In this document: positions 2 through 46,227 of the stretch, piece after piece
Numbering within the stretch: the stretch's first letter is position 1
Layout of the letters: every line of letters starts with the position of its first letter
Assembly: GCF_017051705.1 (NCBI RefSeq)
Contig: NZ_JAFIDJ010000001.1
Location: 248,001 to 312,000, forward strand
Length of the DNA stretch: 64,000 nt
Reading direction: 5' to 3'
Source of the DNA: Algoriphagus lutimaris
Lineage (GTDB): Bacteria > Bacteroidota > Bacteroidia > Cytophagales > Cyclobacteriaceae
Made by a program: the position numbers and the translations under genes
The notes under the pieces: model-generated
What the model saw: the letters and a program-made list of their open reading frames with translations, nothing else
Databases searched by the model: none
Told to the model about the DNA's origin: nothing

Positions 2-107
2 GTCCGATTGCGACCAAAAACACCTATTAGCGGACAAATGAGTTTAGGGTAAATGGCTTTTTAACCAGTAATTAGGGCGTTTTATTCTACTGGCACTTTC
101 TATGCAA
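2..107 (+). promoter_or_regulatory. Sigma-54-like promoter with upstream operator (element 1)
   Basis: The -24/-12 promoter is TGGCAC at 91-96 with GC at 104-105, giving the canonical GG-N10-GC spacing. It is the only one of nine elements in the window with the canonical -12 GC. Upstream lie GTCCG (2-6), four bases, then CGACCAAAA (11-19), which is the left half of the shared operator. The right half is degenerate, and an extra CGGACA sits at 31-36. The window starts here, so further upstream sequence is unseen. It should drive the permeases at 202 and 2669. Confidence 0.75.
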
Positions 108-201
108 CTTTTTCAATCCTAAGTGCATCTCTTTTAGTAGAAAGCTAAACCAACTTTATAAGATACTTCAACAAGTTCTTTTCAACTTACGACGCCTTGC
201 C

Positions 202-2565
202 ATGTTTAAAAACTACTTTAAAATTGCTTTAAGAGGTTTTGCCAAGCATAAGCTTACTTTTTTCATCAACCTCTTTGGTCTTTCTCTTGGCCTTTGGGCC
301 GCTATCCTAATAGGGCTATGGGTTAACTCTGAGTTGACCATCAACAAAGAAATTCCCGAAGTGGGTCGAGTGTATCAGATGATGGAACATCAGTCTTATG
401 GATCAGATGTTTTTACCACGAACTCAACCCCTGGAGTATTGGCAGAAAGTATGAAAGAAAGCTTGGCAGAAGTGGAACTCGCCTCTACTTATACCTGGAT
501 GGAAAATTTACTCTTTGTACAAAAGGATCAGCGCATTAAACTTGAAGGGTTGTTTGCTATGCCGGATTTTTTAAAAATCTATGATTACGGGGTCATCGAA
601 GGTGATCTGAACAGCATGTTGACGGAAAACAACCATGTGATCTTGTCTGAAAGTGGTGCGATCTCGCTTTTTGGCAGAACAGATGTAGTAGGAGAGGATG
701 TGGAGATCAAAGGGGGAACTGAAACACAAAACTTTATTGTACAAGGAGTAGTGAAGGATTTTCCTGCCAGTTCCACTATTAAGTTTGATTTTTTGCTTCC
801 CTATTCCTGGTTTTTTGCAGAAAACGACTGGTTAGAAGACTGGGGGAACAATGGTCCTCGTACAATCATCCGCCTTCGGGAAGGAGTGGATGGAGATGCC
901 TTTTCTGCAAGTGTAGAGAATTTTATTAAAGATCGAAATAAAGAGTCCAACGTTCGCCTTTTTGCCTACCCATTAGGAGATTTATACCTGCATGGTCAGT
1001 GGAAAGATGGACAACCAGTAGAAGGCAGAATCAAAAATGTGAAGCTTTTTGCCATGATCGGTTTATTCGTTTTGATCATTGCCTGTATCAATTTTATGAA
1101 CCTGAGTACGGCCAAATCACAAAAAAGAGCCAAGGAAGTGGGAGTAAGGAAAGTAGCTGGCGCCAACAAACAGTCTTTGGTGTATCAGTTTCTGAGTGAA
1201 TCTTTGCTAATTACTTTCTTTTCCGGAATTATTGCCGTGGTTTTGGTACAGGCTTCCCTGCCGATTTTCAATGATCTGACAGGCAAAGTCATATCCGTAC
1301 CTTATGGATCCTTTTATTTCTGGTTGCAGCTATTGATGATCATACTTTTCACTGGGATCGTGGCAGGCAGCTATCCGGCATTTTACCTTTCTGCCACCAA
1401 AGTAGTTTCTGTCTTTCGTTCTTTCACCAAATCTGGAAAAGGAGTGGTTATGGCCCGAAAAGGTTTGGTTTTGTTTCAGTTTATTCTTGCTACGATTTTG
1501 ATTGTTTCCACCTTAGTGGTGTATCAGCAAATCAATTACGCGATGAACCAGGATTTGGGTTATTCCAAAGACCAGCTGATTCAGGTTCCATTAGAAGGTA
1601 AGCTCAAGGAAAGCTTCGATGTATTTAAAACCGAATTGGAGAAAAATGAAAATATTGAGTCTGTGACTCGTTCATCCTTTGGCTTCCTTGGCAGAAACAA
1701 CAATACAGGTGGTGTTTCCTGGGAAGGAAAAGATCCGGAAAATGCAGCGCTATTTGAAGTTATCCGAGTGGATTATGATTTCTTGAAAACAGCAGGATTG
1801 GAATTGGTGCAGGGAAGAGGATTTGACCGAATGAATGGGTCGGATTCCACTTCGGGAGCTATTTTGAATCAGACGGCTTACGAATTGATGCAAAAGGATC
1901 ATGAAGGTTCTGAGTTTTTTAGGTTATGGGATGAGGAGCGTGCAATTACTGGAATTGTGAAGGATTTTCACTTCGAAAGTTTCCGTCAAAATGTGGCTCC
2001 TGCCATTCTCTTGCTTGATCCTAAAAATACCTGGCAAGGTTATATCAAGATGAATACCGATCAAATTCAGGAAACGATTGCCTACATGGAAAAAACTGCA
2101 ATAAACTTAAATCCGGAATTTCCTTTCGAGTATAGCTTTATGGATGAAAACTATGCCCGCTTGTATAGCGAGGATGTGAGATTGAGAGATTTAGCGCAAT
2201 ACTTCAGTATTCTGACGATTATTATTTCCTGTTTGGGACTTTTGGGATTGTCGGCACATATCGCTGAGCAAAAGACCAAGGAAATTGGTATACGAAAAGT
2301 CTTGGGAGCATCTACTTTTTCAATCCTTCAAGTCATCAATAAAGAGTTTATTTTGATTGTTTCCTTGTCTATTTTGATTGGATCAGGTATCGCGTTTTGG
2401 TTGATGCAGGACTGGCTAAATGGCTATCAGTATAAAATCAACTTCGAATGGTGGTTTATTCCTCTTGCGGCCATTACAATTATGGGGGTTGCTTTGATAA
2501 CGGTGACTTTCCAATCTCTGAAAGCTGCCCATTCCAATCCAGTGAAGGCGATTAAGAGCGAATGA
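202..2565 (+). CDS. FtsX/MacB-type ABC transporter permease, paralogue 1
   Basis: This is an inner-membrane permease of the MacB/FtsX superfamily. These proteins usually work with a LolD/MacB-like ATPase and couple ATP hydrolysis to movements of a periplasmic domain instead of moving a solute through the membrane. The 787-residue protein is an internal duplication. Each half has a membrane helix, a large periplasmic MacB_PCD-like domain and three more helices. The cytoplasmic coupling signatures are INFMNLSTAKS with KEVGVRKVAGA (from residue ~294) and CLGLLGLSAHI with KEIGIRKVLGAS (from ~676). The N-terminus MFKNYFKIALR and C-terminus NPVKAIKSE match the other paralogues. Sigma-54-like element 1 lies upstream, and 103 bp separate it from the next permease. 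The substrate is unknown. Confidence 0.93.
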   Translation: MFKNYFKIALRGFAKHKLTFFINLFGLSLGLWAAILIGLWVNSELTINKEIPEVGRVYQMMEHQSYGSDVFTTNSTPGVLAESMKESLAEVELASTYTWMENLLFVQKDQRIKLEGLFAMPDFLKIYDYGVIEGDLNSMLTENNHVILSESGAISLFGRTDVVGEDVEIKGGTETQNFIVQGVVKDFPASSTIKFDFLLPYSWFFAENDWLEDWGNNGPRTIIRLREGVDGDAFSASVENFIKDRNKESNVRLFAYPLGDLYLHGQWKDGQPVEGRIKNVKLFAMIGLFVLIIACINFMNLSTAKSQKRAKEVGVRKVAGANKQSLVYQFLSESLLITFFSGIIAVVLVQASLPIFNDLTGKVISVPYGSFYFWLQLLMIILFTGIVAGSYPAFYLSATKVVSVFRSFTKSGKGVVMARKGLVLFQFILATILIVSTLVVYQQINYAMNQDLGYSKDQLIQVPLEGKLKESFDVFKTELEKNENIESVTRSSFGFLGRNNNTGGVSWEGKDPENAALFEVIRVDYDFLKTAGLELVQGRGFDRMNGSDSTSGAILNQTAYELMQKDHEGSEFFRLWDEERAITGIVKDFHFESFRQNVAPAILLLDPKNTWQGYIKMNTDQIQETIAYMEKTAINLNPEFPFEYSFMDENYARLYSEDVRLRDLAQYFSILTIIISCLGLLGLSAHIAEQKTKEIGIRKVLGASTFSILQVINKEFILIVSLSILIGSGIAFWLMQDWLNGYQYKINFEWWFIPLAAITIMGVALITVTFQSLKAAHSNPVKAIKSE

Positions 2566-2570
2566 TTTTG

Positions 2571-2606
2571 ATGTAGGATTTATGATATAAGATGTAGGAT
2601 TTATGA
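2571..2606 (+). repeat. Short direct repeat after a permease stop codon
   Basis: The 15-base string ATGTAGGATTTATGA occurs at 2571-2585 and again at 2592-2606, a 21-bp period, directly after the stop codon of the upstream permease. It codes for nothing obvious. Similar low-complexity tracts follow the permeases ending at 19141 and 21687. Confidence 0.6.
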
Positions 2607-2668
2607 AAATGAATGTGAAATGTATTTAACGTAGAAATGCCCATTTAAACGCCCCAAACCCCAGAGCT

Positions 2669-5089
2669 ATGTTTAAAAATTATATTAAGATTGCCCTCAG
2701 AAATCTCTATAAAAACAAGGTCTATTCCATCATCAATGTGATGGGTCTGACCCTAGGTTTTCTTTGCTGCATGTTGATCATGCTGCATGTCAAAGATGAG
2801 CTTTCCTATGATAAATTTGTTCCAAACTATGAGCAAATACACCGAGTTGCATTGGAGCGGATTTATCCAGATCATGTAAATTTTTATTCCATTATTCCCC
2901 ATAGTTTTGCAGAGGTAATTCAAGAGGAAGTAAAAGGAGTATCGGATGCTATCCGGATTTTTAATTTTGGTGCTGGGAATGTAATTACCTATGAAGACAC
3001 TCCTTATGAAGAAGATTACGTGGCAGCTGCGGATTCTAATTTTTTCAATGTTTTTGATTTTGTGCTTTTAGAAGGGGATAAGGAGACGGCATTGGCGGAG
3101 CCTAATACTGTGGTGATTTCTAATTCGGCTTCCATGAAAATATTTAAAGGGGAGTCAGCTTTGGGTAAAACCATCAAGCAAGGGCAAACTGAATATGAGA
3201 TTACTGGAGTCATGGAAGATATTCCGGAAAATTCCCATATGAAATTTGATTACTTGGTATCCAGTACTTCCTTTCCTTTTATAAATCAGGATAATTATAC
3301 CTCCTTTTCTGCACATACCTATTTAAAATTGGATCCAAATGTATCGGCTAAATCCGTGGAAGATGCAATTCCTGGATTGGTGACCAAATATGCTTCGGGA
3401 CAAATTGAGCGGAATTTAGGGATCAGTTATGCGGATTACACAGCAGCAGGGAATGGCTATCGTTATTTCCTTCAGCCAGTGGCATCTATTCATCTGCATT
3501 CTAATTTGGAAGGGGAGTTTAAGGCCAATGGCAATTATTTATATGTGTATATTTTTATTTCCATAGCGGCTTTTATTCTAGTTTTAGCCTGCATCAATTT
3601 TATTAATCTAGCGACTGCCAGGTCTGCCGATCGTGCCAAAGAAGTAGGGGTGAGAAAAGCGATGGGTTCAGCAAGGAAGCAAATCATCACTCAGTTCTTA
3701 TTAGAGGCAGTTTTACTTACCATCGTCAGTTTAATGATTGGAATCGTTTTGGTCAGCTTTGCAGTTCCGTTTTTCAATAACCTAGCCCAAAAGTCCTTGG
3801 TGTTTGATTTTGCAGCCATGCTTTCATCCATTCCATTATTATTGATTTTCGGAGTGATTGTTGGCTTGTTGGCAGGATACTATCCCGCATTCCAAATTTC
3901 AAAATTCAATACGATCAGTATTCTCAAAGGAAAGCTGCAGACGGGTAAAGGCAATTGGCTAAGAAATGGTTTGGTGGTATTTCAATTCGGAATAGCCATC
4001 GTATTAATTTCCGGAACCCTGATCATCAATGATCAAATCCAGTTTATCCAATCCACCAGTTTGGGCTTCAATAAAGAAAATGTATTGGTTTTACAGCGGT
4101 TTGGTAATCAAGACAATCACAATGCTTTAAAGCAGGAGATAGAGAATTTACCAGGTGTGATTTCTGCAGGTAAAACGAGTACCATGCCTGGAAAAGGGAC
4201 ATTTGGTGTTCAATTTATGAAGCCAGGAGGCGGAGATGTACTGACCACCAAAGGTTTTTCTGCCGAAGCTGATTTCTTCAATACCTTAAAAATAGAAGCC
4301 TTGGAAGGACGGGTATTTGATGAAGATTTCAATGATTCACTTTCTTTGATTTTAAATAAGTCAGCTGTAAAAGTATTTTTTGGAGATGAAAACCCCTTAG
4401 GGCAGCGCCTGATGACGACTAATAACATCAATGGAGAAAATATTACCTCTGAGCTGACAGTGGTGGGAGTGGTCGAAGATTTTAATTTTGAATCTCTGCA
4501 TACGGTGGTGACACCATTGGCAATCTTCAATACCAAAAATCCCGCTGGTTTTACCAGTACACTCGCTATCAGGTTTGAGAATAGCCGCCAAAATGAAGTT
4601 TTAGGAGCGGTAGAAGAAAAATGGGCAAGCCTGTCAGATGGCCTTCCTCTTTCTTATTATTTCCTGGATAACGGCTTAGCAGAACTTTATAAAAACGAGC
4701 AAACCTCCAGTAAAATTTTAGGAGTGTTTTCCGTTTTGGCTATCCTAATAGCCTGTATTGGCTTATTTGGCTTAGCGGCCTATACGGCATTTCTCCGTAC
4801 CAAGGAAATTGGAGTCCGAAAGGTATTGGGAGCTTCCGTGGGTAGTATAGTATTCCTTTTGTCGATCAATTTTGCCAAACTGGTGGGGATTGCCTTTTTA
4901 ATTGCAGTGCCAGTAGCATGGTTTGCCATGGACGGTTGGCTGGATTCTTTTGCCTTCAAAATAGACTTGGGACTTTCAGTGTTTTTGGTAGCAGGGCTTT
5001 TGACTTTGGGGGTGGCCCTAATTACAGTAAGCTATCAAGCGATATCTGCTGCCATTGTGAATCCGGTGAAAAGTCTGAAAAGCGAATAA
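2669..5089 (+). CDS. FtsX/MacB-type ABC transporter permease, paralogue 2
   Basis: The 806-residue protein has the duplicated FtsX architecture. A first helix covers residues ~17-40, and a periplasmic domain runs to ~290. The first coupling signature (INFINLATARS, KEVGVRKAMGS) starts at ~307. The second periplasmic domain covers ~450-680, and the second signature (CIGLFGLAAYT, KEIGVRKVLGAS) starts at ~695. The protein ends in NPVKSLKSE. It follows permease 1 at 103 bp with no hairpin or TGGCAC box between them, so the two probably form one transcription unit from element 1. The next gene has its own sigma-54-like element. No ATPase is encoded nearby, so it must borrow one. Confidence 0.93.
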   Translation: MFKNYIKIALRNLYKNKVYSIINVMGLTLGFLCCMLIMLHVKDELSYDKFVPNYEQIHRVALERIYPDHVNFYSIIPHSFAEVIQEEVKGVSDAIRIFNFGAGNVITYEDTPYEEDYVAAADSNFFNVFDFVLLEGDKETALAEPNTVVISNSASMKIFKGESALGKTIKQGQTEYEITGVMEDIPENSHMKFDYLVSSTSFPFINQDNYTSFSAHTYLKLDPNVSAKSVEDAIPGLVTKYASGQIERNLGISYADYTAAGNGYRYFLQPVASIHLHSNLEGEFKANGNYLYVYIFISIAAFILVLACINFINLATARSADRAKEVGVRKAMGSARKQIITQFLLEAVLLTIVSLMIGIVLVSFAVPFFNNLAQKSLVFDFAAMLSSIPLLLIFGVIVGLLAGYYPAFQISKFNTISILKGKLQTGKGNWLRNGLVVFQFGIAIVLISGTLIINDQIQFIQSTSLGFNKENVLVLQRFGNQDNHNALKQEIENLPGVISAGKTSTMPGKGTFGVQFMKPGGGDVLTTKGFSAEADFFNTLKIEALEGRVFDEDFNDSLSLILNKSAVKVFFGDENPLGQRLMTTNNINGENITSELTVVGVVEDFNFESLHTVVTPLAIFNTKNPAGFTSTLAIRFENSRQNEVLGAVEEKWASLSDGLPLSYYFLDNGLAELYKNEQTSSKILGVFSVLAILIACIGLFGLAAYTAFLRTKEIGVRKVLGASVGSIVFLLSINFAKLVGIAFLIAVPVAWFAMDGWLDSFAFKIDLGLSVFLVAGLLTLGVALITVSYQAISAAIVNPVKSLKSE

Positions 5090-5106
5090 GGACTAAAAAA
5101 GCTAGT

Positions 5107-5211
5107 GTTCGCTCACGGTCAAAATCTGATTTGTGCGGACAAAATAAATACCATGAAGGTCCTTTTATTCAACTGAAAGGGCTTTTTGTCTCTTGGCACA
5201 GTCTCTGAATT
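5107..5211 (+). promoter_or_regulatory. Sigma-54-like promoter with upstream operator (element 2)
   Basis: TGGCAC is at 5194-5199 and TGAAT at 5206-5210, so the -12 position reads GA at the exact N10 spacing. The operator has GTTCG (5107-5111), four bases, then the left half-site CGGTCAAAAT (5116-5125). The right half is degenerate, with CGGACA following at 5136-5141. A weak hairpin (CCTTTT/GAAAGGG) followed by five Ts at 5161-5187 sits between operator and promoter. It should drive the head-GIN gene at 5243. Confidence 0.7.
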
Positions 5212-5242: not shown

Positions 5243-5932
5243 ATGAAACTTTCAACTATATCTGCATTCGTGTTTATGCTTTTTTTGATGGGAGCTACTG
5301 CTCAGGCACAAACAGAAACTAGAGCGCCCGGAGACTTCACAAAAGTAAATTCTTCTGGATCTTGGGATGTATTTATCACATTAGGAGATAAAAACGAGGT
5401 GAAATTGGTTTCCAAAGGCTTTGATTTAGACCAAGTCATTACGGAAATAGAAGATGGAACGCTGGAAATTAAACTTGAAAAAGGCAGGCATACTAATGTG
5501 AATTTTACTGCCTATGTAACAGTCCGTGAATTGGAATCAGTTGGATTAAGTGGATCAGGACATATGGAAATTGAATCTGACATTTCATCCAGGTCATTTG
5601 CAATCGGAACTTCTGGTTCAGGAGATATTAAGATGCAACATCTTGAAGCAAGCTCTTTGTATGTAGGAATGAGTGGTTCAGGAAAAGTAATTATTGATGG
5701 AGGCTCTTGTGATGATGCTAATATTGGTCAATCAGGATCCGGTTCATTTGATGCTTTGGATTTAATGGCTGGAGATGTGAAAATTGGAAAATCGGGTTCT
5801 GGGGAAACATCGATAGGAGTAACAGGAGATTTAATAGTAGGTGCTTCTGGCTCGGGTAATGTATATATCAAAGGGAACCCTACCAGTCAATCTATTGGTA
5901 GTTTTGGATCAGCCAAAATCATTAGAAAATAA
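5243..5932 (+). CDS. Secreted head-GIN domain (DUF2807) protein
   Basis: The 229-residue protein begins with a signal peptide (residues 1-22, ending AQAQ). The mature part looks like the DUF2807 'head GIN' family of Bacteroidota. It contains six or more copies of a (T/S)SGSG motif spaced about 20 residues apart (for example LSGSGHMEI, TSGSGDIKM, MSGSGKVII, QSGSGSFDA), as expected for a parallel beta-helix-like fold with one turn per repeat. It has no lipobox. It lies 32 bp after the -12 box of element 2 and in front of permease 3, and it is a clear paralogue of the protein at 11611. The family is often called adhesin-like on weak grounds; a role in the periplasm or at the surface is inferred from the signal peptide. 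Confidence 0.88.
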   Translation: MKLSTISAFVFMLFLMGATAQAQTETRAPGDFTKVNSSGSWDVFITLGDKNEVKLVSKGFDLDQVITEIEDGTLEIKLEKGRHTNVNFTAYVTVRELESVGLSGSGHMEIESDISSRSFAIGTSGSGDIKMQHLEASSLYVGMSGSGKVIIDGGSCDDANIGQSGSGSFDALDLMAGDVKIGKSGSGETSIGVTGDLIVGASGSGNVYIKGNPTSQSIGSFGSAKIIRK

Positions 5933-5944
5933 GAATATCATGAG

Positions 5945-5986
5945 AGTTTGACTTGCTGCATAAAGGCAGCAAGTCAAACTTTTTTT
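5945..5986 (+). terminator. Rho-independent terminator after the head-GIN gene
   Basis: A perfect 15-bp stem (AGTTTGACTTGCTGC, 5945-5959, with its complement at 5966-5980) has a six-base loop and is followed by a T-run to 5986. It lies between the head-GIN gene and permease 3, so permease 3 either depends on read-through or has its own unrecognised promoter in the remaining ~20 bp. Confidence 0.9.
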
Positions 5987-6005
5987 AAAAATAACCCATT
6001 CGACT

Positions 6006-8432
6006 ATGTTCAAAAACTATTTCAAAATTGTTTTTAGAAACGCTAAGAAAAACCCATTGTATGTCTTCATCAATATTTTGGGGCTTTCTATCGGGATGGC
6101 AGTAAGTATTCTGATTTTTTTGTTTGTACAACATGAACTGAGCTACGATACCTACCACAGCAACTCAGATCGGATTTTTAGGATATCAAGAAGCTGGTAC
6201 AATGCGGATGGAGATGTGAGTTTACATTTAGGTCATGTAGCTGCTCCATTTGGACCATTGATCAAGTCTGATTTTGGAGATCAGGTTGAGGAAGTGGTCC
6301 GACTGACTAATAACGGATTGCTGATTCGGTCTGGAGAGAATTCCTTTATGGAAGATGAGTTTTTCTTTGCTGATCCCGAAGTTTTTGATGTGTTCTCTTG
6401 GAATATGATCGATGGAGATCCAAAAGCAGCATTGGAGTCAGGAGATGGGGTTTTGATTTCGGAGGATATGGCCAAAAAGTATTTTGGAAATTCCCCAGCT
6501 ATAGGTCAGGAATTAATTGGTGAAATTCAGGGGATGACCTTGACATTTCAGGTCAGAGGAGTTTTTGAAAATATTCCGGACAATACCCATATGCATCCGG
6601 ATTTCATTGCGACCATGAACCCCGTGATCCAGTTTTATGGAGGCTTGGAAGCTTTTATGAAGAACTTTGGGGGGAATAATTTTTCAACCTATGTATTGCT
6701 GAAAGAGGACTATGATTACAAAGCCTTAGAGTCCCAGTTACCAGCTTTGATTGATCGGAACATGGGCGAGGCGCAGGCAGGAGTACCTATGTCCAAAGTG
6801 ACTGAACTGCACTTGTGGCCCATTGAGGATATCCACTTATATTCTAATCTGGATTCAGAAATAGAAGCCAATGGTAATATTGACTACGTTTATGTGTATT
6901 TCGCAGTAGCTCTTTTCATTCTATTGATCGCCTGTATAAATTTCATGAATCTTTCTACGGCCAGATCCTCTTTGAGATCTATGGAAGTTGGATTGAGAAA
7001 AGTGATGGGCGCAGATCGAAGTAGGTTGGTCAACCAGTTTATGGGTGAATCCTTTGTGATGACATTTATTTCCTTGATTATCGCTGTTATTCTAGTCTAT
7101 ATTTTCCTTCCTCTTTTTTCAGATTTCACCCAAAAACAGCTGAGCCTTAATTTCATTGAAAACCCTGAATATCTCCTGGTTTTAGTAGGTTTGGCCATAG
7201 GAGTTGGACTTTTGGCAGGAAGTTACCCCGCGTTGTTTCTATCCGGATTTTCTCCCTCAAAGGTGCTGAAAGGAACCTTTAAAGCAGGGAAAGGACATGA
7301 GAATTTCCGATCAGTTTTGGTAGTGGGTCAATTTGCAATTTCAGTAATCTTGATAGTGGCAGTTATTGTGGTCGTTCGGCAATTGGATTTCATGCAATCC
7401 AAAGATCTTGGTTTTCAAAAAGATGATATAGTTGTATTACCTGCCAGTCCAGCCATTGTTGAAAATTATCAAATTATCAAAGACCGATTTTTGAACAACC
7501 CTGGAATTAGTGGAGTCACTATTTCTAGCAGAGTGCCTTCTGGAAGACTTTTGGATTCACAAGGAGGTAGTGCTGAGGTGAATGGAGAAATGTCCCAGTT
7601 GGATGTAAGAATTGCAGATATCCATGTAGGACATGAGTTTATTAAAACATATGGAATTCCGATCCTGGCAGGAAGAGATTTTGATTTCCAAATGGCCAGT
7701 GATTCCACTGAAGCGTTTATTCTCAACGAGGTGGCTATCCGTGATATAGGATGGTCAACTCCGGAAGAAGCAATCGGAAAGAAATTCAATTATGGAGGAA
7801 GAAATGGTTTTGTCACTGGAGTGATGAAAAACTTCCATTTCGAATCCTTACATCAACCGATTGTGCCCATTGTATTTATGATCACTCAGGACCGTTCCAA
7901 TCAAGTGAGTATCAAGATTGATGCTTCCCGACGAGAGGAGACCTTGACCTACCTCAAAGCTGAATGGGCTGATTTGAATCCTGGATTTCCTTTTGAACCA
8001 CGTTTTGTGGATGAGGGGTTTAACCGACAGTACGAGGCTGAGCAGCGAGTTAAAACAATTTTCACCTTCTTCTCTGCTTTAGCGGTTTTGATTTCCGTCT
8101 TGGGATTGCTGGGATTAACCACGTTTGCGACGGAGCAACGGACTAGGGAAATTGGAATTAGAAAAGTGATGGGAGCTGAAACCAGCAATATTCTGATATT
8201 ACTTGGTAAAGATTTTATGAAACTTGTATTGATTGGGTTTTTAATTGCAGTACCAATTTCTTGGTTTGGGATGGATAGCTGGTTGGAAGATTTTGCTTAC
8301 AAAATCGGGATCAATTGGACAATATTTCTTTGGGCGGGATTGATTGCAGGACTGATTGCAGCAGGAACCGTCATGATGCAATCCCTTAAAGCTGCATTAG
8401 CAAACCCCGTGAAAAGCATCAAAAATGAATAG
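6006..8432 (+). CDS. FtsX/MacB-type ABC transporter permease, paralogue 3
   Basis: The 808-residue duplicated FtsX permease carries its first coupling signature (INFMNLSTARS, MEVGLRKVMGA) at ~309 and its second (LGLLGLTTFAT, REIGIRKVMGAE) at ~698. The second motif has VLGLLG in place of the CLGL seen in most paralogues. The two periplasmic domains span roughly 45-285 and 455-680. The start ATG at 6006 lies 20 bp after a strong terminator, and no TGGCAC element occurs directly upstream, so it is probably expressed by partial read-through from element 2. A second terminator follows. Neighbouring head-GIN and permease genes suggest a shared envelope role. Confidence 0.93.
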   Translation: MFKNYFKIVFRNAKKNPLYVFINILGLSIGMAVSILIFLFVQHELSYDTYHSNSDRIFRISRSWYNADGDVSLHLGHVAAPFGPLIKSDFGDQVEEVVRLTNNGLLIRSGENSFMEDEFFFADPEVFDVFSWNMIDGDPKAALESGDGVLISEDMAKKYFGNSPAIGQELIGEIQGMTLTFQVRGVFENIPDNTHMHPDFIATMNPVIQFYGGLEAFMKNFGGNNFSTYVLLKEDYDYKALESQLPALIDRNMGEAQAGVPMSKVTELHLWPIEDIHLYSNLDSEIEANGNIDYVYVYFAVALFILLIACINFMNLSTARSSLRSMEVGLRKVMGADRSRLVNQFMGESFVMTFISLIIAVILVYIFLPLFSDFTQKQLSLNFIENPEYLLVLVGLAIGVGLLAGSYPALFLSGFSPSKVLKGTFKAGKGHENFRSVLVVGQFAISVILIVAVIVVVRQLDFMQSKDLGFQKDDIVVLPASPAIVENYQIIKDRFLNNPGISGVTISSRVPSGRLLDSQGGSAEVNGEMSQLDVRIADIHVGHEFIKTYGIPILAGRDFDFQMASDSTEAFILNEVAIRDIGWSTPEEAIGKKFNYGGRNGFVTGVMKNFHFESLHQPIVPIVFMITQDRSNQVSIKIDASRREETLTYLKAEWADLNPGFPFEPRFVDEGFNRQYEAEQRVKTIFTFFSALAVLISVLGLLGLTTFATEQRTREIGIRKVMGAETSNILILLGKDFMKLVLIGFLIAVPISWFGMDSWLEDFAYKIGINWTIFLWAGLIAGLIAAGTVMMQSLKAALANPVKSIKNE

Positions 8433-8453: not shown

Positions 8454-8492
8454 AAATGGGCTCACTTGTAAATTCAGGTGAGCCATTTTTTA
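8454..8492 (+). terminator. Probable terminator after permease 3
   Basis: ATGGGCTCAC and GTGAGCCAT pair with one bulged G around an 11-base loop and are followed by TTTTTATT. This closes the permease 3 unit before the Mla operon. Confidence 0.8.
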
Positions 8493-9446: not shown

Positions 9447-9449
9447 GTT

Positions 9450-10190: not shown

Positions 10191-10191
10191 G

Positions 10192-11178: not shown

Positions 11179-11210
11179 TAATCAACGCATTTTGAATTTT
11201 TTTTTAGATT

Positions 11211-13923: not shown

Positions 13924-13959
13924 TTGTGAGACTACAACTGCCTACTGCTTTCCAAAATC

Positions 13960-16540: not shown

Positions 16541-16554
16541 TGATTTTTTGATTT

Positions 16555-19141: not shown

Positions 19142-19146
19142 GAAAT

Positions 19147-32117: not shown

Positions 32118-32120
32118 ATT

Positions 32121-34892: not shown

Positions 34893-34992
34893 GTTGGTGA
34901 AATTATAAATTGATTGTTTTAGGTGACTGAATTTATGATTTAGGCTAAACTCCTATCTGGTGTATTTTTTATGCGATAGATAGGTGTAGATA

Positions 34993-35283: not shown

Positions 35284-35329
35284 TAAACCCTAATAAGATT
35301 AAACTAAGCCAATCTAAATCTTCATATCA

Positions 35330-37774
35330 ATGATCAGGAATTATTTCAAAATCGCTATTCGTAATTTGTCTAAAAACAAATTGCATACAGGGATCAATTT
35401 AATTGGCCTTTCTCTTGGTTTGGGAGTAAGTATTTTGATTTTCTTTTTCGTTCAGTTCGAAATGAATTTTGATACATTTCATTCCAAGTCTGAAAATACA
35501 TTTAGGATAAAAAGATTTGAAATGTTTGAAGGGGAGTTAAGAAGTTCCTTTGCTACACCCATTGTTTCAGCTACAGCGTTTCAAGATGAGTTTCCTCAAA
35601 TACAAAATGTGACACGAATGATTAGTGGTGTGGCACAGGCCTATTTGGATGAGACAAATACACAAAGCCAAGAGTTTTTGATGGTAAGCCCTGACTTTTT
35701 GAGAATTTTTGATTTCAATTTACTACAGGGAGATCCTACGAATGTGTTGAGTGATAAATATGGAATCGTTATCACAAAAGCAACTGCTGAAAGGTATTTT
35801 GGAGAGACGAACCCAATTGGTGAAAGTATTAGAATTCGATTGGGAGAAAGCTATGAAGCCTATCAAGTGGCTGGAATCCTTGAAGATATTCCAGACAATT
35901 CCAGTATCAAGTTCGAAATGCTACTGAATGAGGAGAATCTGGATTTTATGGTGGAGGAAAGAAGTAGAAACTCTTGGTATAATGTCTTTGGTGAAACCTA
36001 TGTTTACCTTTCCAGTGCCAATCAAGAACAGGATGTGGAAGCTGGAATGGAAGGTATGATGAAGAAGGTTTTAGGGGAGGATTACAAAGAAGGTAATTAC
36101 TATTTTACGTTGGAGCCCATTTCAGAAATGCATTTTTCGGATGATCCAAATGGGGGTATGGTCGAAACTACCCGCCCTAAATTACTTTGGATCCTCTCGA
36201 CGATAGCAGTATTAATTCTGTTGATCGCAAGTATTAATTTCACTACCATGGCCATTGGTAGAGCCATGACACGAGCCAAAGAAGTTGGGGTAAGAAAAAC
36301 CATGGGAGCTGATTTTGGTCAATTGGTTGTTCAGTTTTTGACAGAGGCTTTCCTAACTACCTTGGCTGCATTAATTGTAGGAGTGATCTTAGCTGAAGTC
36401 CTATTGCCTACCTTTAATGAGCTTTTTGAGAAAAACTTAAGTCTGGTTTATGGATTGAATCAGATATTGATCCTAGTTGGATTAGTTGTTTCTATTACAC
36501 TTTTGGCAGGTGCATATCCTGCATTTTTCCTATCTGGATTTAAACCCATTAAAGTCTTGAAAGGGACACTTTCTCTTAATTTTGGAAAGCAAGGCTTAAG
36601 GAAAGGCTTAGTAGGTATTCAGTTTTTTATATCCTTTTTATTAGTGGCTTCGACCTTTATTATGGTTCATCAGATGAACACGATTCGAAATTTTGATTTG
36701 GGGTTTGATCAAAATATGGTGGTACTCGTAGATGTGCCAGAAATTCCTTCTCCTGGTTTTATCAAAACTATTAAAGAGAGTTTTAAGCAAGCAGAATTAT
36801 ATAGACAATCATTAAATGCTAGGTCTGAGATTCAATCTGCTGGAATCACCATTGCTACTTACGGAGACGATGCATTTTGGAATGCTGGATTTCCTTTAGA
36901 GGAAGGAAAACAATTTCAATTCCGGGTAAATTTTGTAGGAGGAGATTATTTTAAAACCCTAGGTTTAGAGTTGGTAGATGGACGTGATTTTAATCCTGAT
37001 CAAGGAACAGATAGCAGTGCTTTTGTCATCAATGAAAAGTTTGCTGAAGCAATGGGATGGGATGACCCAACTGCTGAGATGATGCCAAGCACTCGATTCG
37101 ATAGCCATGAAATAGTTGGCGTTGTAAAAGACTTCAATCATGCTTCTTTGTATCAAGAAATTGAACCGGTATTATTTGCAAAAAGTCCAGATGCAGTCTT
37201 TAGCGGGATTAATTCTTTGAGTATCAACTCAGCAACCAACCCAAAAGTAATTGTCAAAGGCTCCGGGACAGATTTTGAATCTTTTAGAGCATTGCTGAAA
37301 AGTGAATGGGAAAAAGTATTCCCTTCTGAATCATTTAGTTTTAGCTTTCTGGATGAGACGGTGGAAGCGCAATATAGAGCAGATGAGAGGCTTGGTAAAA
37401 TGGTGTTTTTTGCAGCAGGGATTGCTATCTTAATTGCTGCTATGGGGTTATTTGCTTTAGCAGCACTAAGTATTTCCGGAAGAACGAAAGAGATTGGAAT
37501 CAGAAAAGTTTTGGGAGCTTCAATCTGGAGTATCTCATGGATGTTTAATAAGGAATTCTTGATTATCACGCTAGCTGGTATCTTGATCGCGCTTCCATTG
37601 AGTTTATATGTGATGCAAAGTTGGATCGAACAATTTGCAGTTAAGGCCTGGCCTTCCTGGGTGAACTTTATGCTGTTAGCGATAGGCGGAGTTGGATTTA
37701 CCTTACTGATCGTTTCCGCTCAGGCCTATTTTGCTGCACAAACGAATCCCGTGAAAACGTTGAAAGACGAGTAG
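35330..37774 (+). CDS. FtsX/MacB-type ABC transporter permease, paralogue 9
   Basis: The 814-residue permease starts MIRNYFKIAIRNLSKNKLHT. Its coupling signatures are the most altered: ASINFTTMAIGRAMTRAKEV (~300) and AAMGLFALAALSISGRTKEI (~703), so both lack the usual cysteine and the G of GLFGL is A in the second. KEVGVRKTMGA and KEIGIRKVLGAS are kept, which argues that ATPase coupling is preserved. It ends NPVKTLKDE. It lies 47 bp after the deletion remnant and 52 bp before paralogue 10. Together with 10 and 11 it likely forms an operon from element 8. Confidence 0.92.
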   Translation: MIRNYFKIAIRNLSKNKLHTGINLIGLSLGLGVSILIFFFVQFEMNFDTFHSKSENTFRIKRFEMFEGELRSSFATPIVSATAFQDEFPQIQNVTRMISGVAQAYLDETNTQSQEFLMVSPDFLRIFDFNLLQGDPTNVLSDKYGIVITKATAERYFGETNPIGESIRIRLGESYEAYQVAGILEDIPDNSSIKFEMLLNEENLDFMVEERSRNSWYNVFGETYVYLSSANQEQDVEAGMEGMMKKVLGEDYKEGNYYFTLEPISEMHFSDDPNGGMVETTRPKLLWILSTIAVLILLIASINFTTMAIGRAMTRAKEVGVRKTMGADFGQLVVQFLTEAFLTTLAALIVGVILAEVLLPTFNELFEKNLSLVYGLNQILILVGLVVSITLLAGAYPAFFLSGFKPIKVLKGTLSLNFGKQGLRKGLVGIQFFISFLLVASTFIMVHQMNTIRNFDLGFDQNMVVLVDVPEIPSPGFIKTIKESFKQAELYRQSLNARSEIQSAGITIATYGDDAFWNAGFPLEEGKQFQFRVNFVGGDYFKTLGLELVDGRDFNPDQGTDSSAFVINEKFAEAMGWDDPTAEMMPSTRFDSHEIVGVVKDFNHASLYQEIEPVLFAKSPDAVFSGINSLSINSATNPKVIVKGSGTDFESFRALLKSEWEKVFPSESFSFSFLDETVEAQYRADERLGKMVFFAAGIAILIAAMGLFALAALSISGRTKEIGIRKVLGASIWSISWMFNKEFLIITLAGILIALPLSLYVMQSWIEQFAVKAWPSWVNFMLLAIGGVGFTLLIVSAQAYFAAQTNPVKTLKDE

Positions 37775-37825
37775 TTTTCTATTTAAAAAAAGAAGAGTCT
37801 TAAGGTCAAAACAAAAAGGAAAAAT

Positions 37826-40237
37826 ATGATTAAAAATTATTTCAAAATAGCATGGAGAAATATTCTCAGAAATAAACTGAGGACAGTAATTCATATTCTG
37901 GGTTTGTCTATGGGGATTTCTATTTGTTTTTTAATATTCAATGTGGTTATTCATGCTTACAGCTTTGATAACTTTCATCCGGATGATGATAGAATTTTTA
38001 GAATTACCTCAAAGTCATCCTATGGAAATATGGAATTCAGTAATCCGGGAGTTCCATTTCCTTTGGCCGAAGTCATTGATCAGGATTTAACAGGTATTGA
38101 GGAAAAAGCCCATGTTTATAGTTATAAAAGGGCCATGGTCCGTATTTCTGAAACCAACAAAAATCTTGGCAGAAGAAATGGAGCTTTGTTAGTCTCTAAC
38201 TCTTTTTTTAAGATTTTTCCCAGAGAATGGATCGCAGGAAAAATGGACCAGGCATTGGAAAAACCTAATTCAGTGGTGCTTTCAGAAGAAACTGCCAAGG
38301 TCTACTTTCCAAATTTGCCTATGGAAGAGATATTGGGGAAAGAAATAGTTTATCACAGCCAGGATACAATTGCAGCCACAGTTACGGGCATAGTGAAACC
38401 CTTCTCCGAGAATTCTGATCTGGATTTTACAGATTTTATCTCTATAAACAGCTTAGATCTCCTTCAAGATAATTCAAGATTTAATATGGAGCGTTGGGAT
38501 GCCTTTACTTCAGATTCTCAATTGTTTGTCAAGTTGGCAGAAGGTGTAGGCCCAGAGCAACTGGAAGCATCATTTCCGGAAATGATTAAAAAGTATTTAG
38601 GCGAAGAAGATGGGGAGTACAGACAACATTTCGCTCAGCCTTTATCAGAGCTACATTTTTCAGATGCATTGGGAAATGAGCCTGCGAACAAATTGATACT
38701 AAATGGACTGGTCATTTTGGGATTGATTATTTTGGTTTTAGCCTGCCTGAATTTCATCAACCTAGAAACCGCTCAGGCCATCAACAGATCCAAAGAGGTC
38801 GGAATCCGGAAAACTTTAGGCGGGAGTAAAGGACAGCTAACGAATCAATTTTTGGCAGAGACTCTGGTGATTGTATTCATCGCTACTTGTATTTCAGGTG
38901 TTTTTTCTGAACTGTTAAGGTCTGTTTCAAAGTCTTACTTGCCAGAAAATTTTGAACTGAATTTCATTTCAGTTTCAAGTTCGGCTTTCTTGATCGGGTT
39001 TTCGCTGTTGTTGACCTTGGTGGCGGGGCTATATCCAGCCTTAGTTCTTGGAAATTATGATCCTCAAAGAGCCTTAAAAGGGGAGCGGCAGGGAGTCACC
39101 GGAAAATTTTCTTTCGGGGTATTTCTCCGGAAGAATTTAACGGTGGTACAATTTACCTGTTCCATTGCTTTTGTCATTATGGTGCTGGTGGTGAATAGCC
39201 AATTAAGGTTTTTGAGCAGACAGGAAATGGGTTTTGACAAAGAAGCAGTACTATTCATTCCTACCCCGTTTATGGAGTCCTCTGCGCGGATTGATGTTTT
39301 AAAAGAGCGATTACTTCAAAAATCCTACATAGCTGGAGTTTCTCAAAGTGATGCCTTGGTCTCTTCCAATAGTTATAATACCTCTGGTATTTACCTGGTA
39401 GTGGATACTACCAAAATAGAAATCGATATACAGACCAAGAATATTGATTCATCATTTGTGGCGGTAAATACACTGGAGTTGGTTGCTGGGGAAAATATGA
39501 ATAACCAAGTAGATCAGGTCCTGGTAAATGAGGCCTTGGTGAGGGAATTAGGACTTGAAAACCCAGAAGAAGTGTTGGGTTTGATGTTTAATTACAATGG
39601 TCAAAACAGAGTGATCAAGGGAGTGGTCAAAGATTTTCACGCCTTGAACCTGAGATCAAAAATAAGTCCCTTGGTCATGTTTTATTCTCCGGAATATTCT
39701 CCAATTATCAACGTTAAGTTAGAGAAAGGAACAGATATCAGTGTGGCAAAATCCGAAATGGACCAACTTTTTAAAGAAGTCTATCCATTGGAATCCTCTG
39801 AATTTAATTTTCTTGATGAGATGCTTGCGGGGTTTTATAAAGATGATCAAATGCTTAGAAATGTCATGGGCTTCGCATCCGGACTCGCTATTTTGATTTC
39901 ATGCCTAGGGCTCTTTGGGTTATCTTCTTTTACGATCGCTCAACGCACCAAAGAAATTGGGATCCGCAAGGTATTAGGCGCTACTATTATGCAAGTGTTG
40001 GTAATGATCAGTAAGGAATATGTATGGTTGATAGGGGGTTCATTTGTATTAGCCTCAGGAATAGCTTGGTTCTTTTCAAGCGAATTTTTGAATACTTACG
40101 CCTTCAAAATTGGAATGCCTTATGGACTATTTGCTTTGTCTGGTTTATTAATATTGAGTATTTGCTTACTGATTGTTGGGCTGCATGCTTATAATGCTAC
40201 CCAAGCCAATCCTTCAGAAGTATTAAAGGATGAATAA
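37826..40237 (+). CDS. FtsX/MacB-type ABC transporter permease, paralogue 10
   Basis: The 803-residue permease is the close partner of paralogue 11. Both start M(I/L)KNYFKIAxRNILRNxLR, have IHxLGLSxGISICFL in the first helix, carry the altered first signature (L-A-C-L-N-F-x-N-L-E-T-A-Q-A-I, ~306, with ETAQ in place of STAR and TLGG in place of VMGA), and share CLGLFGLSSFTIAQRTKEI (~692). It ends NPSEVLKDE. It follows paralogue 9 at 52 bp and precedes 11 at 60 bp, with no promoter element in between. Confidence 0.93.
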   Translation: MIKNYFKIAWRNILRNKLRTVIHILGLSMGISICFLIFNVVIHAYSFDNFHPDDDRIFRITSKSSYGNMEFSNPGVPFPLAEVIDQDLTGIEEKAHVYSYKRAMVRISETNKNLGRRNGALLVSNSFFKIFPREWIAGKMDQALEKPNSVVLSEETAKVYFPNLPMEEILGKEIVYHSQDTIAATVTGIVKPFSENSDLDFTDFISINSLDLLQDNSRFNMERWDAFTSDSQLFVKLAEGVGPEQLEASFPEMIKKYLGEEDGEYRQHFAQPLSELHFSDALGNEPANKLILNGLVILGLIILVLACLNFINLETAQAINRSKEVGIRKTLGGSKGQLTNQFLAETLVIVFIATCISGVFSELLRSVSKSYLPENFELNFISVSSSAFLIGFSLLLTLVAGLYPALVLGNYDPQRALKGERQGVTGKFSFGVFLRKNLTVVQFTCSIAFVIMVLVVNSQLRFLSRQEMGFDKEAVLFIPTPFMESSARIDVLKERLLQKSYIAGVSQSDALVSSNSYNTSGIYLVVDTTKIEIDIQTKNIDSSFVAVNTLELVAGENMNNQVDQVLVNEALVRELGLENPEEVLGLMFNYNGQNRVIKGVVKDFHALNLRSKISPLVMFYSPEYSPIINVKLEKGTDISVAKSEMDQLFKEVYPLESSEFNFLDEMLAGFYKDDQMLRNVMGFASGLAILISCLGLFGLSSFTIAQRTKEIGIRKVLGATIMQVLVMISKEYVWLIGGSFVLASGIAWFFSSEFLNTYAFKIGMPYGLFALSGLLILSICLLIVGLHAYNATQANPSEVLKDE

Positions 40238-40296
40238 AGATTTCCTTGCATTTAGAACCCAGGTTTAGGTCAGTCAGATTTTTAAAAAAATGAAAT

Positions 40297-42708
40297 ATGT
40301 TGAAGAACTACTTCAAAATCGCCTTTAGAAATATCCTTAGAAATAGGTTGAGGATGGCAATTCATGTCCTTGGCCTGTCGATTGGAATCTCAATTTGTTT
40401 TCTGGTGTTCAATGTGGTTTGGTATGCCAATAGTTTTGATAATTTTCATCCGAAGGCAGAAAATATTTATAGGATTTCTACAGTTACTGACTTTGGTGGA
40501 GGAGAAGTCTATCCAAATTCGGGGACACCAGTGCCATTAGGGGAGGTGATTGAAGATGAAATCTCAGGCATTGATCAAAAGGCGAGGTTTTATACTACCT
40601 ATCAAACCAAAGTAGTGGTACAGTCACCAGAGAAAGATTTTGGCAGGACCAATAAAGTGATTTTGGCAAGCCCTGGTTATTTGGAGATTTTTAAGAGAGA
40701 ATGGTTGGCTGGAGATTCAAAAAATGCATTGGTGGAGCCTTTTTCTGTGGTGTTGACGGCTTCATCTGCAGAAAAATATTTTCCAGATGTGTCTTTTAGT
40801 GAGGTGGTAGGGAAAGAGATTCTATATACCGAAACTGACACCATGTACACCAAGGTCACAGGAGTGGTCAAGGACTTTACAGAGCACACTGACTTTATAT
40901 TCACAGATTTTATTTCCTTTTCTACGATATCCATGTCCTCCAACAAAAACCGATATGCTTTGGAGCAATGGGATAATGTGAATTCGAGCAGCCAACTTTA
41001 CATAAAAACACTGGATGGAGTTACCGAAAGTAGTATCAATGAAGGTTTAGAGGCAATCGTAACCAAAAATCTAAGCGATCAAGAAGATGCTGAGACCAGT
41101 TTTTTTGCGGAGCCCTTGAAAGATGTACATTTTGGACAGACCTACGATGGTAATTCTGTTTCAAAAACCTTCCTTCATGGATTGTTGGTGATAGGGGCGA
41201 TCATTATAATATTGGCTTGTTTGAATTTTGTAAACCTGGAAACCGCTCAGGCAATTGGCAGAGCTAAAGAAGTGGGGATCCGCAAAACGTTGGGAGGGAG
41301 TAAATTTCAATTGATCTTTCAATTCCTAGCTGAAACCTATCTGATTGTTCTGGTTGCCACTATTATTTCCTACTTATTGGTTCAGATTTTAGTGACTTCA
41401 TTTGAATCCTATCTTCCAAAAGGAATTTCGGTTGACTTTTTGTCTTTTGAAAACATGCTGTTTACCATAGGATTTACTTTGATCTTAACGCTGATTTCCG
41501 GGATTTATCCATCTATGGTTTTAGTCAGCTATCAACCTCAGAGGGCCTTAAAAGGGGAGGTGAAGCAATCCAATAAATTCTCTTTTGGGGTCTTTCTAAG
41601 AAAGAATCTAACTGTTTTACAGTTTGCCAGTTCTATCGCATTTATCATTCTTGTTTCTGTGATCTCTTTTCAGCTGAAATATGTGTCCAGTCAACCTCTA
41701 GGGTTTAATAGTCAGGCAATTTTATATTCTTCCTTACCTTTTCGAGGAGGCCAGGATAAATTTGAATTGCTTAGGGAAAGATTGAATCAATTGAGTTATG
41801 TAGACGGGGCAAGCCTCAGTGGAGACCTGGTTTCCTCAACCAGTTTATGGACTTCCGATGCTCAATATCAATTAGATACAGCCGAGCTGGATTTCTTTGT
41901 ACAGATAAAAAATATGGACTCTGCTTTTGTGGAAGTAAACGGGTTGGAGTTATTGGCAGGTCGAACGAGTCAAAATAGAGAGGGTGAGGTGTTGGTGAAT
42001 GAGGTGTTTATGAATCAGGTTCTAGTTGAAGACCCTACGGAGCTTGTTGGGCAAAAGATGAAGTTTTCTGGAGAAGAGAAGACCATTGTTGGGGTGGTGA
42101 AAAATTTTCATTCAAGAACCCTCAGGGAAGAGATTAGGCCTATTCTGATGATTTATCAACCTGAAACGTTTAGGGCGATCAATGTCAAGCTTCAGGATCA
42201 TATCAATTTGGCGGAGGCTAAATTGGGACTGGAACAAGTATATCAAGAAGTCATTGGATCGGAAAATCAGACCTTTAAATTTTTAGATGAAGAGATCGGT
42301 AGATTTTATGAGGAAGATTTGAAAATCCGGAATGTGTTGGGATTAGCCTGTGGTCTAGCAATTCTAATATCTTGTTTGGGTTTATTTGGACTTTCTTCCT
42401 TCACCATTGCTCAGCGAACCAAGGAAATAAGCATCAGAAAAGTGTTGGGTGCAAGCATCCTTCAGATTTTAGGATTGATATCCAAGGAATATGTACTCTT
42501 GGTGACGGTCTCCTTTGCCTTGGCAGTTTATCCTGCATATTACTTTTTGAGTGATTGGCTGAATGGATTCCAATACCGAGTAGAGATGCCTTATTTCATA
42601 TATATGATTTCAGGCTTGGGTGTATTGGTTATTTGTTTGATCATAGTGGGGCTTCATTCCTTTACTGCTGCCCAAACCAACCCTGCCAAGGTATTGAAAG
42701 ATGAGTAA
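40297..42708 (+). CDS. FtsX/MacB-type ABC transporter permease, paralogue 11
   Basis: The 803-residue permease has the same length and domain layout as paralogue 10, with coupling signatures LACLNFVNLETAQA (~307; KEVGIRKTLGG) and CLGLFGLSSFT with KEISIRKVLGAS (~692). It ends NPAKVLKDE. The pair looks like a tandem duplication more recent than the split of the other copies. The periplasmic domains differ clearly between the two (for example YSFDNFHPDDDRIFRI versus NSFDNFHPKAENIYRI), which suggests that recognition diverged while the membrane core was kept. It is the last gene of the element 8 unit. Confidence 0.93.
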   Translation: MLKNYFKIAFRNILRNRLRMAIHVLGLSIGISICFLVFNVVWYANSFDNFHPKAENIYRISTVTDFGGGEVYPNSGTPVPLGEVIEDEISGIDQKARFYTTYQTKVVVQSPEKDFGRTNKVILASPGYLEIFKREWLAGDSKNALVEPFSVVLTASSAEKYFPDVSFSEVVGKEILYTETDTMYTKVTGVVKDFTEHTDFIFTDFISFSTISMSSNKNRYALEQWDNVNSSSQLYIKTLDGVTESSINEGLEAIVTKNLSDQEDAETSFFAEPLKDVHFGQTYDGNSVSKTFLHGLLVIGAIIIILACLNFVNLETAQAIGRAKEVGIRKTLGGSKFQLIFQFLAETYLIVLVATIISYLLVQILVTSFESYLPKGISVDFLSFENMLFTIGFTLILTLISGIYPSMVLVSYQPQRALKGEVKQSNKFSFGVFLRKNLTVLQFASSIAFIILVSVISFQLKYVSSQPLGFNSQAILYSSLPFRGGQDKFELLRERLNQLSYVDGASLSGDLVSSTSLWTSDAQYQLDTAELDFFVQIKNMDSAFVEVNGLELLAGRTSQNREGEVLVNEVFMNQVLVEDPTELVGQKMKFSGEEKTIVGVVKNFHSRTLREEIRPILMIYQPETFRAINVKLQDHINLAEAKLGLEQVYQEVIGSENQTFKFLDEEIGRFYEEDLKIRNVLGLACGLAILISCLGLFGLSSFTIAQRTKEISIRKVLGASILQILGLISKEYVLLVTVSFALAVYPAYYFLSDWLNGFQYRVEMPYFIYMISGLGVLVICLIIVGLHSFTAAQTNPAKVLKDE

Positions 42709-46083: not shown

Positions 46084-46123
46084 AAAAGACCTGCTTACCG
46101 GACTGAAATAATTCACATGTTTC

Positions 46124-46227
46124 GTCCGTATGCGAACAAAAATGTTCGAGAAAACAATAGGGTTGAATACCAAAAAATGCCTCTGGAGTTGTTTCAGGGG
46201 CTTTTTTTTGTGGCACAAAACTGGGAA
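46124..46227 (+). promoter_or_regulatory. Sigma-54-like promoter with upstream operator (element 9)
   Basis: GTCCG (46124-46128), four bases, then core CGAACAAAAATGTTCG (46133-46148). TGGCAC is at 46211-46216 and TGGGAA at 46222-46227, so -12 reads GG. The centre lies 71.5 bp from the -24 GG. It precedes permease 12, the ATPase and the TolC-like gene. Confidence 0.83.
46172..46209 (+). terminator. Terminator embedded in element 9
   Basis: A hairpin with arms GCCTCTG and CAGGGGC around a loop is followed by eight Ts. The -24 box begins at 46211. It would block read-through from the oxidoreductase gene. Confidence 0.78.

Follow-up and report, generated by a model that had tools for sequence, protein, structure and literature searches.

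A repeated operator–promoter module heads the FtsX-type permease units of an Algoriphagus lutimaris locus that is probably served by one sigma-54-type two-component system

Control of FtsX-type permeases (COG0577) by sigma-54 has already been predicted in print as a class. The study concerned (PMC12316311), in the parts relied on here, reports the predicted control as enriched in Bacteroidia among others and describes itself as the first evidence; it used a genome-wide position-specific scoring matrix around TGGCAC-N5-7-TTGCT and filtered the activators for GAFTGA. Genes of toastrack proteins (DUF2807/DUF4097) have been described beside two-component systems or beside an ABC ATPase and a permease in operons; in the parts of that work used here, toastrack is argued to be intracellular and DUF2807 is counted as a toastrack family (PMC11237479). 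Here, we analyzed an array of permease and toastrack genes of Algoriphagus lutimaris. The window, i.e., the whole stretch of 64,000 nucleotides, covers positions 248001–312000 of contig 1 of the 4.7-Mb genome (G000). A preliminary description of this stretch had proposed nine sigma-54-like promoters, each preceded by an operator and all read by one activator encoded elsewhere. Judging from the sequence, we consider it highly probable that ten copies of one module put an expandable transporter array under a single dedicated two-component system of the sigma-54 type.

The nine TGGCAC or TGGCAT boxes of that description are all present, and each has an operator 60–64 bp upstream. They belong to nine of the ten copies of one composite regulatory module, numbered 1–9 along the window and named below by the first base of the box. 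The tenth copy lies beyond the window, 10.95 kb upstream of its first base (coordinate −10950; position 237050 of the contig). The module consists of an operator, a spacer of 60–64 bp, a T-tract, TGGCAY as the −24 box and, at position 14 (numbered from the T of TGGCAY as 1), an almost invariant G. TGGCAY is present in all ten modules, and the 60–64 bp between the operator and the −24 box, also kept in all ten, is a looping distance.

A strict module pattern was run over the whole genome with the reversed pattern as a control, a kind of search that the preliminary description had proposed. It gave seven matches, all within the locus (copies at 91, 5194 and 11296 were missed), and none for the control. 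The operator core CGAACAAAATTGTTCG, with up to three mismatches, matched the window 11 times (strands combined, with some sites counted twice) against a shuffle mean of 0.71, and none of 100 shuffles reached 11. Complete modules scoring at least 14 numbered eight in the 62.3-kb locus, whereas seven other genomic stretches (139,604 bases in total) and 30 dinucleotide shuffles had none. The copies at 91 and 5194 scored lower because their third half-site stands elsewhere, as described below. By itself, the box pair TGGCAY-N5-TGGAA was not accepted as evidence (289 matches with up to three mismatches, 320 expected by chance). A genome-wide pattern with a TRGAA −12 box recovered only four of the ten modules because the −12 box varies. 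Scans for sigma-70-type promoters were uninformative, with fewer matches than in shuffles.

The operator half-sites are TGTYCG and CGRMCA. Their arrangement was investigated in 81 distinct modules from six arrays and 49 named loci, collected by requiring the first two half-sites, the T-tract and TGGCAY. A third half-site, TGTYCG, is located at +20 in 73 of them, and none of these 73 shows a well-matching CGRACA at +30. The +20 site is degenerate in the remaining eight, and CGGACA stands exactly at +30 in six of these and one base earlier in two (by eye). The operator is thus two dyads (TGTYCG-N4-CGRACA) set 20 bp apart on a 10-bp lattice, the first complete and the second with one good half. 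The operators of the preliminary description are there, but as this lattice minus one half rather than as one uniform string. A second dyad that keeps either its left or its right half accounts for the two odd copies. Module 1 has TGTCCG-N4-CGACCA with the right half CGGACA at +30 (1–36, forward strand), the left half of the second dyad being lost, and module 2 has TGTTCG-N4-CGGTCA with CGGACA at +30 (5106–5141, forward). Counterparts in three other genomes (G014, G018 and G033) are of this right-half kind as well. The idea that modules 1 and 2 simply have poor operators was rejected, since the lattice shows the third half-site displaced by one turn. In 35 orthologs of the tenth copy with a 62-bp spacer, the half-sites are 94% identical, while the first 48 bases of the spacer are 42% identical.

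The preliminary description had expected one AAA+ activator outside the window, and a gene of this kind ends 11.2 kb before the window start. It is located on the reverse strand of the contig (235375–236760), encodes 462 residues and is followed by a histidine kinase gene. The protein contains REC, sigma-54 AAA+ and Fis-type HTH domains, all above the Pfam cut-offs, and aligns to 4l4u over residues 9–462; from these matches it is an NtrC-type sigma-54 response regulator. Its nearest named relatives are from Algoriphagus species, with up to 97% identity. Between this gene and a divergently oriented operon of adaptor, ATPase and permease genes stands the tenth module, which heads the operon. Two transmembrane helices (residues 7–25 and 34–52), about eight residues apart, are predicted for the kinase. 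The genome has one rpoN (Sigma54_DBD match, 195 bits).

The locus-wide regulon of the preliminary description agrees with the divergent position of the activator and the tenth module, and also with the distribution of both in relatives. We compared 36 genomes of the genus, 118 of the family (two of them already counted) and 22 at the order level. In the genus, 23 genomes have an activator ortholog of at least 89% identity, and all 23 have strict modules (2–10 each); none of the other 13 has one. In the family, 22 genomes not counted before have an ortholog of at least 79%, and modules were present in 22 of 22 (1–9, mean 3.7). Joined, the two sets comprise 45 genomes that have a close ortholog, and every one of the 45 has modules. 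Among the 22 order-level genomes outside the genus, one had a strict match. The earlier interpretation is therefore supported, with the dependence on sigma-54 itself as a predicted feature.

Another activator might also, or instead, read the modules. The genome encodes six activators with a full-length match to the sigma-54 domain, and one candidate is a paralogous regulator (C1:2235736–2237115, in L028) with 61% identity to the activator, a GAFTDA loop and its own kinase (34%). However, genus genomes that lack modules (e.g., G002, G003 and G005–G008) have a relative of 61–62%, which is the level of the paralog; judged by identity, these relatives may be its orthologs. In the 19.9 kb around the paralog, no FtsX relative was found among the open reading frames (ORFs) and no TGGCAY-N5-[TCA][TGA]G site. 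We regard a reading of the modules by another activator as very unlikely.

The likeness of the sites could also be a mere by-product of the duplication of permease units together with their upstream DNA, with no shared regulation. The permeases are indeed paralogs, 13 of them being 27–34% identical to the first in the alignment. However, the spacers are 31–42% identical, in contrast to the conserved half-sites, T-tract, TGGCAY and G14; the same module stands before unrelated genes (adaptor, toastrack protein, ATPase), and modules co-occur with the activator. The by-product explanation is extremely unlikely. In six annotated arrays, the module-headed genes encode an adaptor, a permease or a toastrack protein. 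The unit of module 9 opens with an ATPase in seven of 23 genomes (G004, G009, G017, G021, G024, G026 and G030), with no permease in the stretch read, and in G031 its counterpart stands before a different permease. Some units are far from the regulator: in G009, the activator is located at 2.69 Mb and a module-headed ATPase–TolC unit at 1.51 Mb of one contig, and in G021 two modules are 2.66 Mb away from the activator. Array size also differs widely within the genus: of the five arrays compared (G009, G014, G018, G021 and G033), the smallest (G021) has two permease relatives in 80 kb and the largest (G014) about 19.

Several observations weigh against the control of the array by one sigma-54-type system. 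The 13 genus genomes without modules are only 67–93% complete. The Fisher values for the co-occurrence (4e-10 and 4e-13) ignore shared ancestry, and the genomes are phylogenetically non-independent. Among the 94 family genomes without a close ortholog, 18 have matches, 19 in all, a rate roughly double that obtained with the reversed control (11 in 118 genomes). The sole one of these 18 that was inspected (G120, with a 73% relative) has its match adjoining the relative, and this match may be a real module. Because TGGCA was required for entry into the module collections, copies with a different −24 box would escape them. First genes were annotated in six arrays, those of most other genomes being without annotation. 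The 16-base core alone, with up to two mismatches, gave ten rows genome-wide (eight in the locus, at seven places) against six for the reversed control. The loop of the activator is GSFTDA instead of GAFTGA, and the canonical C of the −12 box is missing in nine of the ten modules.

The variation at −12 deserves a closer description. The preliminary description had assigned a TGGAAT-like −12 box to each promoter; strict TGGAA is present at three of the nine (14046, 16640 and 35078), and the remaining six deviate. Near forms are TGGAG at 11296, TAGAA at 22992 and TGGGA at 46211. The others are ATGCA at 91, which is the only copy keeping GC at −12, CTGAA at 5194, and the copy at 32367, whose −12 box is one base later. 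We collected 94 distinct modules by TGGCAY for letter counts, 47 filed as tenth copies and 47 as others (a divergent module of L089 was filed among the internal ones). Outside the operator, the conserved letters are the T-tract at about −9 to −4, TGGCAY and G14. The last occurs in 46 of 47 modules in each half. At position 15, where the canonical C would stand, 41 of the 47 tenth-copy modules have G, and 29 of the other 47 have A. In terms of GG-N10-GC, the G is present in nine of ten own and 92 of 94 collected modules and the C in one of ten and 10 of 94. The TGG at the fixed −24 place, as expected for sigma-54, is present in the own modules; in the 94 collected it was the selection rule. In 1.36 Mb of the relatives' loci, TGGCAY-N5-TTGGC occurred 44 times, the N4 form 14 times and other spacings 0–5 times. 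These counts describe the module rather than a genome rate because the activator was the basis for choosing the loci, some of which overlap.

These deviations allow the alternative that the modules are activator-controlled promoters whose TGGCAY and T-tract serve a factor other than sigma-54. The canonical −12 TTGCW is absent at all ten, the GC is rightly placed only at 91, and the loop of the activator is unusual. In the 49 named loci, this loop is G[SA]FTDA in 46 and GSFTGA in one, and two had no match to the expression used. However, the adjacent activator is of the sigma-54 class across its whole AAA+ domain, rpoN is present, and the most fixed letters are TGGCAY and G14 at sigma-54 spacing. 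Escherichia coli sigma-54 promoters that deviate at −12 are also listed in the parts of PMC12316311 relied on here. A different factor is unlikely, and control by sigma-54 is retained as the preferred interpretation.

According to this interpretation, the kinase would read a membrane or transporter signal and phosphorylate the regulator. Dimers of the regulator would bind the full dyad and, cooperatively, the half-dyad, where a hexamer would assemble. The hexamer could then loop over the spacer and open the sigma-54 holoenzyme at all units simultaneously. The output would consist of MacB-type permeases of the fused double form, served jointly by two ATPases, one adaptor and one TolC, together with toastrack proteins, and it might serve a response to envelope stress or toxic compounds. 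Family resemblance of the proteins suggests envelope stress or the export of noxious compounds, and this basis in resemblance counts, like the points above, against the proposed output. The locus would illustrate a means of connecting many FtsX/MacB-type permeases, in a paralogous family of changing membership, to a single signal: a short cassette repeated in front of the units. The regulator and its likely operator can now be named; therefore, the signal and substrate of these orphan permeases are testable via a one-gene deletion. The modules also offer natural test cases for the needs of sigma-54 promoters at −12 and for a co-evolution of the GAFTGA loop with the −12 box.

Several spacers contain a terminator-like hairpin between the operator and the −24 box. 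A hairpin was called strong when the 48 bases preceding the −24 box gave a z below −2 (z shifts slightly with the shuffles), and modules were divided by the strand of the nearest upstream ORF, called mechanically (a divergent module of L070 was thereby filed as co-directional). Of the 39 modules with a co-directional upstream ORF, 18 have a strong hairpin, compared with three of 50 with an ORF on the opposite strand and none of five at the start of a fetched stretch. In the window, modules 5194, 16640, 35078 and 46211 have a hairpin, all with a co-directional gene upstream. The module at 14046 has neither such a gene nor a hairpin, and that at 91, at the window edge with a reverse-strand gene before it, has no hairpin listed. 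At 11296, 22992 and 32367, a co-directional gene is present and no clear hairpin. A role of the hairpin as a requirement of the promoter was rejected, as most divergent modules are without one. In module 9, the hairpin (46179–46201, forward) covaries among 23 genomes: 97.6% of the pairing cells are kept, four of nine pairs changed on both sides in some genome, and the values for pairing and covariation were reached by 0–1 of 500 shuffles.

The hairpins may be ordinary terminators of the upstream genes, placed in the spacer for want of room, and not parts of the module; we hold this to be an even chance. The same oxidoreductase gene precedes module 9 in 23 of 23 genomes. Moved units could therefore not part this gene from the hairpin, which may belong to it. 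Moreover, just three of 55 modules without a co-directional upstream gene have a hairpin, and 21 of 39 with such a gene have no strong one. The position of the hairpin argues for the opposite: it lies between the operator and the −24 box with its T-run merging with the conserved T-tract, and this is found in non-orthologous modules. The divergent module of L089 is a clear exception to the plain-terminator explanation, having a strong hairpin (z −6.6) without a co-directional gene.

In the module itself, the terminator would often halt upstream co-directional transcripts before the −24 box, and a unit whose upstream transcripts are halted would answer to its own module. This leads to a more tentative proposal, which we regard as possible but somewhat less than an even bet. 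The module may be a portable, self-insulating cassette that combines a one-and-a-half-dyad operator, a terminator inside the enhancer–promoter loop with its T-run doubling as the T-tract, and a loss of the −12 C paired with the change from FTGA to FTDA in the activator loop; the cassette itself would then be the conserved thing. If this is true, it outlives a deleted permease, heads differing genes and stays with units megabases from the regulator, and one two-component system could add transporters without leak or crosstalk.

All 12 permeases of the window are in module-headed runs on the same strand, several as second or third genes, whereas the preliminary description had placed 11 of the 12 under modules. 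No terminator-like hairpin was listed in the gaps within these runs, which cover the 12 permeases, and we infer that each run is one transcript. All features that follow are on the forward strand unless noted. The promoter of module 1 (91–106, TGGCAC, −12 ATGCA) precedes two fused FtsX-type permeases of 787 and 806 residues (unit 1, 202–5089), with no terminator-like hairpin listed in the gap between them. Module 2 has a terminator-like hairpin in its spacer (5155–5186, hairpin scan) and its promoter at 5194–5209 (TGGCAC, −12 CTGAA). It heads unit 2 (5243–8432), a DUF2807 (toastrack) protein and a permease (6006–8432). A terminator-like hairpin at 8459–8484 (hairpin scan) separates this unit from the MlaEFD genes (8682–11178). 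These were rejected as members of the regulon, with this hairpin upstream and no module heading them. The MlaE–MlaF–MlaD genes lie inside the array in G000 and G018 and are absent from the 80 kb read of G009.

Module 3 (operator 11210–11235; promoter 11296–11311, TGGCAC, −12 TGGAG) heads a DUF2807 protein (unit 3, 11611–12306), after which a terminator-like hairpin was found by the hairpin scan (12326–12355). Module 4 (operator 13959–13984; promoter 14046–14061, TGGCAC, −12 TGGAA) heads a permease of 807 residues (unit 4, 14117–16540). In module 5 (operator 16554–16579; promoter 16640–16655, TGGCAC, −12 TGGAA), a strong hairpin and a T-run occupy the spacer (16602–16635; RNAfold −19.7 kcal/mol, not in the terminator scan), and unit 5 (16715–21687) consists of two permeases of 808 residues each. 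Module 6 (operator 22906–22931; promoter 22992–23007, TGGCAC, −12 TAGAA) precedes unit 6 (23038–26401), an SGGS-repeat protein and a permease (24044–26401). Module 7 (operator 32279–32304; promoter 32367–32383, TGGCAC, −12 TTGGA one base later) heads a permease of 812 residues (unit 7, 32454–34892). The operators of modules 3–9 were located by the operator scan.

Module 8 (operator 34992–35017; promoter 35078–35093, TGGCAT, −12 TGGAA) contains a hairpin and T-run (35042–35072), placed on the forward strand by folding and on the reverse strand by the terminator scan. Directly behind it is the remnant of a deleted permease (35160–35290), about 23 N-terminal codons followed by an out-of-frame C-terminal tail; in G018, the corresponding module is followed by an intact permease. 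As read from this comparison, module 8 outlasted the deletion of its permease and now heads the next three (unit 8, 35330–42708; 814, 803 and 803 residues). Module 9 (operator 46123–46148; promoter 46211–46226, TGGCAC, −12 TGGGA) heads unit 9 (46344–50788), composed of a permease, a MacB/LolD-type ATPase (48778–49461) and a TolC-type outer-membrane protein (49421–50788). No module was found before the MlaEFD genes, a kinase/LuxR pair, the oxidoreductase genes or the reverse-strand genes of the window. One of the last (27940–29307) encodes 2Fe-2S, adenylate/guanylate cyclase and globin domains in one chain.

The locus has 14 permeases against two MacB/LolD-type ATPases, the ATPase genes being in unit 9 and the tenth unit and none in units 1–8. 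MacB_PCD and FtsX domains were above the cut-off in all four permeases scanned with Pfam, and a profile of all 14 aligns to MacB over positions 4–417 (5nik, 5gko). The adaptor passes RND_mfp. The DUF2807 proteins at 5243 and 11611 score 160 and 155 bits (cut-off 24.2), and the former matches 4opw at 1.6e-5. The toastrack proteins carry signal-peptide-like N-termini. The SGGS-repeat protein (23038–23982) has no Pfam or PDB match, and its best match, LiaG, is at 38.9 bits under a cut-off of 285.

The canonical sigma-54 site itself shows an uneven distribution. The pair TGGCAY-N5-TTGCW occurs zero times in the 4.7-Mb genome, and the N8 form, which has the same codon phase, 16 times. In the 36 genus genomes, the counts are 67 and 383, with N5 below N8 in 35 of 36. 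In the 22 order-level genomes they are 154 and 279, and one genome (G054) shows the reverse (42 and 22). The canonical box pair thus looks strongly avoided, N8 being the single genome-wide control spacing. rpoN, on which the avoidance might depend, was matched in 55 of the 58 genomes, and the three without a match are 99, 85 and 88% complete. One canonical site, TGGCATAAATATTGCA, lies at 4710–4725 of L136, about 145 bp upstream of gldJ (TIGR03530, 756 bits). It also precedes a like gene of 407 residues in L137 and L138 and occurs in at least 15 genus genomes among the matches listed, with no exact match in G000. This gldJ-type gliding/type IX lipoprotein gene may be sigma-54 dependent.

In the open-access literature, we found no paper on the locus, on the module or its operator, or on a loop that contains a terminator; the closest systems resemble the locus in parts. 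The permeases resemble MacAB–TolC by the profile alignment to MacB, and the permeases, adaptor and ATPases resemble DarB, DarC and DarD, respectively. However, all of these matches are below the NCBIfam cut-offs (nine of the 14 permeases were scanned; the ATPases match DarD, MacB and LolD), and each chain here contains two MacB-like halves without an ATPase of its own. The Dar-type scores thus also weigh against the output proposed above. ADOP (TIGR03434) shares the duplicated layout of about 800 residues, but the nine permeases scanned reach 233–318 bits, mostly over the full length, against a cut-off of 622.3. BceS-type kinases work with Bce transporters of the FtsX family. The kinase of this locus is similar in having two predicted transmembrane helices with almost no loop near FtsX-family transporters, a likeness of predicted topology and gene vicinity, whereas its regulator is a sigma-54 activator. 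The enterobacterial Psp system is driven by the sigma-54 activator PspF. Like PSP/Lia-type systems, the locus has toastrack genes near a two-component system, an ABC ATPase and a permease, although no PspA, PspC or LiaI–LiaF was found among the genes scanned. The signal-peptide-like N-termini differ from the intracellular toastrack argued for in the parts of PMC11237479 used here. The prediction for FtsX-type permeases in PMC12316311 comes, in the parts relied on here, without an operator, a dedicated activator or a repeated module. The promoters and activator of this locus would largely escape its canonical-box and GAFTGA filters.

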